Below the pieces are notes generated by a model. The model was not told the origin of the DNA, did not search any database, and saw only the letters and a program-made list of their open reading frames with translations. A stretch of DNA of 64,000 bases from an actinobacterium acMicro-4 (GTDB taxonomy: Bacteria; Actinomycetota; Actinomycetes; Actinomycetales; Microbacteriaceae), in contig JNSD01000013.1 of NCBI GenBank assembly GCA_000754445.1, positions 186,001 through 250,000 of the forward strand, given 5' to 3'. The position numbers and the translations under genes are program-made. This document shows, one piece after another, positions 40,759 through 45,297 of this stretch (positions within the stretch are counted from its first letter, which is position 1; each line of letters opens with the position of its first letter).

Positions 40759-41973
40759 GTGGAAAAGATCAAGGTCGAGGGCGTTGTCGTTGAACTCGAT
40801 GGCGACGAAATGACGCGCATTATTTGGCAGTTCATCAAGGACCGTCTCATCTACCCCTACCTCGATGTCTCACTCGAGTATTACGACCTCAGCATTGAAA
40901 AGCGCGACGAAACCGACGACCAGATCACCATTGATGCAGCCAATGCGATTAAGAAGCACGGGGTGGGTGTCAAGTGCGCAACGATCACTCCGGACGAGGC
41001 CCGGGTGAAAGAGTTTGGCCTCAAGAAAATGTGGCGAAGCCCCAATGGCACGATCCGCAACATTCTGGGTGGTGTGATCTTCCGTGAGCCCATCATTATT
41101 TCCAACATTCCCAGGCTTGTTCCTGGCTGGAACAAGCCGATCATCGTGGGCCGTCATGCGTTTGGTGACCAGTACCGGGCAACAGACTTTCTTTTTGACC
41201 GCCCGGGAACGCTGACCATTAGCTTCCAGCCAGCCGATGGCACGGAGGGCCAGAGCTTTGAGGTGTTCCAGGCGCCAGGGGCTGGTGTTGCAATGGCGAT
41301 GTATAACCTCGATGACTCAATCCGCGATTTCGCTAGGGCCTCCCTCAACTACGGCCTCGCCCGGAACTACCCGGTCTATCTCTCGACAAAGAACACCATC
41401 CTGAAGGCCTACGACGGTCGCTTCAAGGACATCTTCCAAGAAATCTTCGAGGCCGAGTTCAAGGACGCCTTTGATAAGGCCGGCTTGACCTATGAGCACC
41501 GCCTGATCGACGACATGGTCGCCTCCGCACTGAAGTGGGAGGGCGGCTACGTCTGGGCCACCAAGAACTATGACGGGGACGTCCAGAGCGACACGGTCGC
41601 TCAGGGCTTTGGCTCTTTGGGCTTGATGACCAGCGTCTTGACTACCCCGGATGGTGCGATCGTTGAGGCAGAGGCCGCGCACGGCACCGTCACTCGCCAC
41701 TACCGCGATCACCAGGCCGGAAAACCCACGTCCACTAATCCCATTGCCTCGATTTTTGCCTGGACCAGGGGTCTCATGCACCGAGGCAAGCTCGATGGCA
41801 ACCAGGCACTCATTACCTTTGCGCAGACGCTCGAAGACGTTGTCATTAAGACCGTCGAGTCTGGCGCGATGACCAAGGACTTGGCCGGTCTGGTGGGTGA
41901 AGACCAGAAGTGGTTGACCACCGAGGACTTCTTGGCGGCTCTGGATAACAACTTGTCGGCGCGCCTGGGCTAG
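40759..41973 (+). CDS. icd: NADP-dependent isocitrate dehydrogenase (homodimeric, eukaryotic-like type)
   Basis: Oxidative decarboxylation of isocitrate to 2-oxoglutarate with NADPH formation. The 404-residue product has [19 protein letters not shown], the substrate motif [13 protein letters not shown], the [17 protein letters not shown] helix and the NADP-selective [16 protein letters not shown]. This is the type II homodimeric enzyme related to eukaryotic IDH, not the monomeric 80-kDa form common in some actinobacteria. The start is GTG after GAAAGGACG. Confidence 0.96.
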
Positions 41974-42002
41974 TAGCCAAAATACCCCCTGGGGTATATA
42001 GT
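41974..42002 (+). promoter_or_regulatory. Promoter of the small Cys-rich gene
   Basis: TAGCCA (41974-41979) and TATAGT (41997-42002) with a 17-nt spacer. The spacer contains the CsoR-like palindrome, which abuts the -10, so a bound regulator would block RNA polymerase. The -35 overlaps the region right after the icd stop. Confidence 0.6.
41982..41997 (+). promoter_or_regulatory. CsoR/RcnR-like operator palindrome
   Basis: ATACCCC-CT-GGGGTAT is a perfect 7-bp palindrome: G/C tracts framed by AT-rich ends, the form of operators bound by the CsoR/RcnR/CstR family of copper, nickel/cobalt or persulfide sensors. The regulator gene is not in the window, so the ligand is unknown. Confidence 0.55.
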
Positions 42003-42041
42003 GGTGGGTGAACCATCAGTCACCCCACAAGGAGAACAATC

Positions 42042-42158
42042 GTGTGTAGCCCAGCGCGCTGTAATCGCTGCAGCAAAGTAACGTGGACCGGATGTGGAGA
42101 GCACATCGACGAGGCTTTGGCTGGCTTTGCTCCCGCTGAGCTCTGCCAGTGCGGCTAG
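42042..42158 (+). CDS. Small Cys-rich (putative metal-binding) protein, 38 aa
   Basis: A 38-residue product, start GTG at 42042, six nt after a perfect AAGGAGA site (42029-42035). It contains six cysteines (2, 7, 10, 18, 35, 37) and His21: an N-terminal CxxxxCxxC, a central TWTGCGEH and a C-terminal CQC. I have the impression that similar tiny proteins with C-x2-C-x-K-x-TW-x-GCG-x-H exist in other actinobacteria, annotated as hypothetical. Promoter, operator, ribosome site and terminator all fit, so a real gene is very likely. Metal (copper or zinc) binding or sulfur chemistry is inferred from cysteines plus the CsoR-like operator. Confidence 0.8.
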   Translation: MCSPARCNRCSKVTWTGCGEHIDEALAGFAPAELCQCG

Positions 42159-42172
42159 ATCACTAGAGCGTC

Positions 42173-42202
42173 CATACCCCTGCGGATTACCGCTGGGGTA
42201 TG
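42173..42202 (+). terminator. Terminator of the Cys-rich gene, built from the same palindrome
   Basis: CATACCCC (42173-42180) pairs with GGGGTATG (42195-42202); inside, GCGG-ATTA-CCGC extends the stem across a T/T mismatch. T-rich sequence follows. The outer arms repeat the operator half-sites at 41982-41997. Confidence 0.7.
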
Positions 42203-45182: not shown

Positions 45183-45224
45183 CGGGGCCAGCGCCTCGGG
45201 GTCAGCGCGCCGGGGTCAGTGGGT
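45183..45224. repeat. 14-nt tandem repeat leading into tRNA-Pro
   Basis: Three adjacent 14-nt units (45183, 45197, 45211) each begin CGGGG(C/T)CAG. The fourth, in register at 45225, starts CGGGGTGACAGG and is the 3' acceptor and T-arm end of the tRNA gene. The array fills the gap between tdk and the tRNA. Confidence 0.75.
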
Positions 45225-45297
45225 CGGGGTGACAGGATTCGAACCTGCGACCTCGTCGTCCCGAACGACGCGCGCTACCAAGCTGCGCCACACCCCG
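45224..45297 (-). tRNA. tRNA-Pro (anticodon CGG)
   Basis: A 74-nt cloverleaf on the minus strand: acceptor CGGGGTG pairing with CACCCCG, D-stem GCGC/GCGC, anticodon stem CGTCG/CGACG with loop TTCGGGA, and T-loop TTCGAAT. The anticodon CGG lies at 45261-45263. The discriminator is A and CCA is not fully encoded (CCC follows). Confidence 0.95.

Follow-up and report, generated by a model that had tools for sequence, protein, structure and literature searches.

Persulfide handling in bacteria has so far been told through enzymes (rhodaneses, persulfide dioxygenases, reductases) and through CstR-type sensors. In the Staphylococcus aureus protein CstR and its relatives, a cysteine pair is kept, the metal-site histidine is absent and the targets are of the rhodanese type. 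ScCsoR of Streptomyces coelicolor, a CsoR-family repressor with two cysteines, is a sulfane-sulfur sensor by experiment; it binds the 16-bp site ATACCn6GGTAT and controls genes for a persulfide dioxygenase, a rhodanese and a sulfite transporter (PMC7533328). This site is described as resembling those of copper CsoR and RicR (PMC7533328), so the operator alone cannot decide between metal and sulfur. Metallothionein-3, a mammalian protein that takes up seven zinc ions, is described as holding its zinc by way of persulfide sulfur, with thioredoxin resetting it (PMC12618007).

The 64,000-nucleotide window, the whole stretch of DNA analysed here, carries a short gene in a setting that, like the ScCsoR circuit, combines a two-cysteine CsoR-family repressor with a 16-bp site of the form ATACCn6GGTAT. 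The four-gene ScCsoR circuit, in the account given of it (PMC7533328), is without such a peptide; unlike that circuit, a CoA-disulfide-reductase (CoADR)-rhodanese protein and a thioredoxin join here, and the sites seen in the source assembly include none for a persulfide dioxygenase.

All the parts of the mini-gene that the earlier note had listed, from the promoter hexamers to the six cysteines, are in place. A −35-like hexamer, TAGCCA (41974..41979, + strand), and a −10-like hexamer, TATAGT (41997..42002, +), found by a consensus scan with 9/12 matches over both hexamers, are separated by a 17-nt spacer; the scan returned 1 promoter-like site, where shuffled sequences gave 0.2 on average. 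The perfectly palindromic 16-bp operator ATACCCCCTGGGGTAT (41982..41997, no strand assigned), recognized by sequence and conservation, occupies this spacer and overlaps the first base of TATAGT. A ribosome-binding site, AAGGAGA (42029..42035, +), is followed by the peptide gene (42042..42158, +), which runs from a GTG start at 42042 through 38 codons (MCSPARCNRCSKVTWTGCGEHIDEALAGFAPAELCQCG) to a TAG stop at 42156-42158 and encodes cysteines at positions 2, 7, 10, 18, 35 and 37 and His21. The gene is a self-contained unit and stands alone in its own genome, between what we take to be an isocitrate dehydrogenase gene (40759-41973) and, 250 nt beyond the peptide gene, a presumed glyA gene (from 42410). 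The peptide gene is real and its protein is under purifying selection: among 15 genus orthologues the frame is protein-coding, with a pooled pN/pS of 0.17 (105 pairs) and pN below pS in 104/105 pairs.

The peptide is conserved in actinobacteria, as the reading in the earlier note requires, occurring in 35/60 relatives searched and in at least 64/396 Actinomycetota genomes, the latter a lower bound, as most of these genomes had part of their candidates scored (e.g. 17/97). Within the genus it is present in 16/19 genomes (the source assembly counted), and the three without a match are 53%, 59% and 74% complete; beyond the genus its distribution is patchy, with 7/18 other family members having it and 11/18 being without it. 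A scan of a named-species collection gave at least 589 confirmed relatives, from which 80 loci were kept, including Cellulomonas, Arthrobacter, Rhodococcus, Mycolicibacterium, Corynebacterium, Kineosporia, Cryobacterium, Demequina and Gordonia. All 80 are titled as actinobacteria save one titled Rubrivirga, and the search of the Rubrivirga phylum returned many genomes and places identical to those from the Actinomycetota search. Relatives presumably occur in fungi as well; they play no part in our conclusions.

Alignment of 68 sequences (A2: the window protein and 67 of the 80 contig peptides, with 13 near-duplicates or extended starts omitted) shows that M1, C2, C7, C10, T14, W15, G17, C18, G19, H21 and C35 are invariant and that C37 is kept at ≥90%. 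At the C-terminus, 75 of the 80 peptides have C-x-C and 5 have C-x-G-H, and 32/80 are longer than 45 residues. With curated cut-offs or E 0.001 as the limit, Pfam returned nothing for the window protein, no match of 19 family members passed its cut-off, and NCBIfam gave nothing above threshold for the family; the best PDB sequence profile reached E 0.16, and a PDB fold search with the peptide model returned no significant match. One 61-residue relative (in L202) reaches DUF5651 (PF18892) at 20.3 of 27 bits, below the cut-off, and 3/19 members match the heavy-metal-associated domain HMA no better than E 0.083, too weak for use. The CxxH/CxxC proteins of TIGR04129 and Pfam YyzF are, like the peptide, short with a C-x2-H element and give weak local matches, but remain distant from it (E 0.11-0.14; 12.5 bits for the window protein against TIGR04129, cut-off 35). 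The open-licence PMC literature, in its titles and abstract openings, yielded no description of such a peptide. As far as that literature goes, the peptide represents a previously undescribed small-protein family, placed in a regulon of a known kind.

Gene catalogues largely pass over this peptide, an example of how a short gene can stay uncalled despite strong regulatory evidence. A match to the peptide occurs in 78 plasmid records (L200-L202 among them), mostly from Rhodococcus (43) and Clavibacter (16); of the 40 listed, 38 have no annotated feature at that place, the PLSDB gene table itself being incomplete. Relatives are also encoded on six IMG/VR viral contigs (L194-L199) as candidate phage genes; a DNA search of phage records gave no match.

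The window operator fits the ScCsoR sulfane-sulfur site, and the same palindrome precedes the operon of the CsoR-family gene, in line with the earlier assignment to a CsoR-family regulator. The sequence ATACCCNNNNGGGTAT occurs in 4 copies in the 1.08-Mb source assembly and in 3-7 copies per genome across all 19 members of the genus, and its backward control gave 0 in all 37 genomes searched. A loose search of the source genome with TACCCCNNGGGGTA (up to 2 mismatches) gave 37 matches per strand versus 59 for the backward control; without an excess there, the signal is confined to near-perfect sites (3 exact, 1 with one mismatch). The association with the peptide, which the earlier note had proposed to look for, is seen within the genus and beyond it. 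The operator precedes 15/16 genus peptide genes, the sixteenth beginning at a contig end, and is present in 9/13 further family and order loci; the motif scan missed L021, which has the operator by coordinates, and L027, a decayed copy. Of the 80 distant loci, 48 carry a TACC-N4-6-GGTA palindrome in the 150 nt before the peptide, against about 0.013 per locus expected from the background of the same DNA; in the other 32, which include Mycolicibacterium and several Cellulomonas loci, that interval contains none.

The CsoR-family gene on which the earlier reading depended is present in the source assembly (PF02583; G000:C1:82746-82979), scoring 81.3 bits against a cut-off of 22.8. Its product keeps both cysteines and has Ala at the metal-ligand His position (Cys-Ala-Cys); both InrS (5fmn) and a CsoR (4m1p) have His at the aligned place. 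It is like CstR in the retained cysteine pair, the missing metal-site His and the rhodanese-type targets. Unlike CstR, it has Ala at the His position, where Gly, Ser, Ala, Ile or Asn stands in the 80 loci, and its sensing is a prediction. The 80 loci hold 42 CsoR-family genes, 34 of them within 2 kb of the peptide, and the metal-site His is found in 0/42, one of which (L066) has a gap at the tested column; the initial probes were all His-less, and repeating the count with His-type probes gave the same result.

Across 37 relatives there are 41 CsoR-family genes, 25 without and 16 with the His. The peptide is present in 22/25 relatives with a His-less gene versus 3/12 without one (p 2.8e-4, relatedness ignored; the genus genomes are related and the counts not independent). 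The three peptide-positive exceptions are G010 (84% complete, no CsoR-family match), G023 (a degenerate copy carrying a stop codon, no CsoR-family match) and G049, which has only a His-bearing CsoR. A His-less gene adjoins the peptide in G042, G044 and G045, and both peptide and palindrome are absent from the family members G019-G022, whose CsoR is of the His type. At 78% completeness, the source assembly could lack a second CsoR of the copper type; the 99% complete genome G005 has a single CsoR-family gene, which is His-less. By sequence the regulator is no copper sensor, and we class it as CstR-like within the CsoR family.

The four sites in the source assembly precede the peptide gene, a CoADR-like flavoprotein with a rhodanese end, a rhodanese lipoprotein and a thioredoxin; the gene next to the flavoprotein is the only CsoR-family gene found in that assembly. 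When sites were read in the source assembly and seven more genus genomes (8/19), 31 of 39 preceded CoADR, rhodanese lipoprotein, thioredoxin or peptide genes, several sites being flanked by gene starts on both sides and assigned to the likelier one. By genome, CoADR was represented in 8, the rhodanese lipoprotein in 8, thioredoxin in 8 and the peptide in 7. The remaining 8 sites precede genes for DUF4395 (3), YgaP-like membrane (2), SLAC1 (1) and peroxidase/KatG-type (2) proteins, and no copper-export genes were found among those assigned to the 39 sites. In an order-level relative (G038), one of four sites precedes a Pyr_redox_2 flavoprotein, which we take to resemble sulfide:quinone oxidoreductase, one precedes a divergent CoADR/CsoR pair, and two precede proteins without a Pfam match. 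The partner genes (rhodaneses, CoADR-type proteins and thioredoxin) and a regulator without the metal-site His mark the predicted regulon as one of reactive sulfur, not copper. The earlier note had suggested a metal- or sulfur-stress peptide; the partner genes and the His-less regulator support the sulfur part of this suggestion and speak against copper or nickel.

Two further features of these loci were observed. The palindrome stands before the peroxidase/KatG-type genes in two genus genomes (L152 and L172, near 1501-1516), a possible link to oxidative stress. In several genus genomes a conserved gene (L005:544-1500, − strand) is divergent from the CoADR operon across the operator.

Examination of the 80 distant loci shows similar company. 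Within 2 kb of the peptide we found CoADR in 36, CsoR in 34, rhodanese in 38, thioredoxin in 11, TauE in 7 and DUF302 in 6, these probes overlapping in that CoADR carries a rhodanese end. At least one of the six sulfur-type probes matched within 2 kb in 50/80 loci, and none did in 30/80; widening to the locus ends (up to 6 kb each side) adds 4 loci for CoADR, 8 for CsoR and 3 for rhodanese. For P-type ATPase, the count within 2 kb is 1/80. Gene order was read in 3/78 plasmid records. A Frigoribacterium plasmid has a CoADR-rhodanese gene, a rhodanese gene and a CsoR-family gene next to the peptide, and on Rhodococcus pREL1 the peptide lies among DsrE, thioredoxin, DUF302, DUF2892, TauE, rhodanese and MBL genes. 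The Microbacterium plasmid has the row peptide-thioredoxin-MBL/rhodanese-TauE-DUF4395-rhodanese, with the peptide leading, 26 nt before the thioredoxin gene.

These data lead us to lean, by a modest degree, towards the peptide being a small effector of a per/polysulfide regulon under a CstR-like regulator, a zinc-knuckle-like thiol mini-protein that would relay persulfide sulfur. The repressor would cover the palindrome between −35 and −10, and sulfane sulfur, by analogy with ScCsoR, would modify its cysteines and cause it to leave the promoter. The peptide would then be made along with the CoADR/rhodanese enzyme, the rhodanese lipoprotein and the thioredoxin. An AlphaFold model (pLDDT 82, pTM 0.42) has strands at 3-6 and 13-16 and a helix at 19-26, and places C7/C10 in a hairpin turn and C18/H21 at the helix start, a zinc-knuckle arrangement; it has no significant fold match in the PDB. 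The C-x2-C and C-x2-H ligands are invariant in the 68 sequences and the modelled secondary structure fits a beta-beta-alpha order; C7-x2-C10 and C18-x2-H21 may form a zinc-knuckle-like core in such a mini-fold. Cys2, N-terminal after Met removal, and C35-x-C37 would be the sulfane-sulfur acceptors. The peptide could bind or relay persulfide sulfur on zinc-bound or free thiols, and the co-regulated thioredoxin might reset it, as reported for metallothionein-3. The proposed likeness to metallothionein-3 is that of a small Cys protein holding zinc and sulfane sulfur with thioredoxin reset (PMC12618007), and the peptide differs in having at most one putative zinc-knuckle core; no sequence relation is claimed.

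More tentatively, and with somewhat less than even confidence, we propose that the family of 38-60-residue actinobacterial proteins may be a dedicated sulfane-sulfur carrier or buffer that a CstR-like sensor induces, rhodanese/CoADR chemistry loads and thioredoxin empties, a functional counterpart of sulfane-sulfur-binding metallothionein. If this is true, a tiny, widespread Cys protein would be a new player in the persulfide regulon, and its gene would allow testing whether a protein pool serves as a sulfane-sulfur buffer.

Other roles within the same sulfur response are conceivable. Persulfide stress may free zinc from thiolate proteins, and the peptide, induced along with the sulfur genes, might hold or re-deliver this or another metal as a buffer or chaperone, carrying no sulfur. 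Exchange between Cys and His is typical of metal ligands. The C-terminal C-x-C is replaced by C-x-G-H in 5/80 peptides and the two ligand pairs are invariant, both of which favour this role; however, a structural zinc site would account for the same ligands, and no link to a zinc transporter or regulator was seen among the sorted neighbours. We regard a metal buffer as unlikely, and slightly more so a partner or regulatory peptide that binds and tunes the repressor or a regulon enzyme (CoADR, rhodanese or thioredoxin). The invariant T14, W15, G17 and G19 suggest a binding face, and on the Microbacterium plasmid the gene directly leads that of thioredoxin; against such a partnership, no gene is always adjacent, the neighbour counts of CoADR (36), CsoR (34), rhodanese (38) and thioredoxin (11) all falling well short of 80, and in its own genome the peptide gene has no partner beside it.

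Were a copper-sensing CsoR in charge, the peptide could be a metallothionein or chaperone for copper or nickel, which would explain six cysteines within 38 residues, and the operator shape is described as shared with copper CsoR and RicR (PMC7533328). We reject this reading as improbable on regulator residues and regulon content: the metal-site His is missing from the regulator and from all 42 CsoR-family genes of the 80 loci, a single locus has a nearby P-type ATPase, and the family members G019-G022, carriers of His-type CsoR, lack both peptide and palindrome. Cysteine-rich attenuator ORFs occur in mycobacteria, and a short ORF that is rich in cysteine and has a strong hairpin after it could be such a leader, in which translation and not the product matters. 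Protein conservation led us to reject this reading too, as very improbable: non-cysteine residues are invariant across a phylum, pN/pS is low, the hairpin is not kept within the genus, and the next gene, which looks like glyA, lies 250 nt on.

The hairpin (42173..42202, +), found by folding and scan, has operator-like arms and may mark a transcript end, and is not an operator. The surrounding 67 nt fold at −22.9 kcal/mol (z −3.2), so the strong hairpin of the proposed terminator stood; its reading as a terminator is weaker than proposed, there being no T tract 3′ of it and no terminator found by the terminator scan. The suggestion that the doubled palindrome serves as a combined regulator and terminator device failed, and we rejected it: the half-sites are 14 nt apart, versus 2 in the operator, the T tract is missing, and operator-like arms occur in 2/15 genus loci (the own genome and one close relative), the others having a different hairpin or none of this kind. 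We read the second palindrome as a chance arrangement at this locus, or at most as a feature of recent origin, and not as a regulatory device.

Three minor observations concern single loci. Genome G028 has a tandem pair of family genes (L022:1318-1617), encoding a 55-residue protein with C-x-G-H and a tail and a 39-residue one with C-x-C; the 150 nt upstream of each gene contain no palindrome. The decayed peptide copy in G023 (L027:1490-1625) has an internal TGA and GCGER replacing GCG-x-H and, with no CsoR-family match in that genome, looks as if the peptide decays after regulator loss. In the window itself, a tRNA-Pro (cgg) gene at 45222-45297 (− strand) is the sole tRNA gene reported by ARAGORN.
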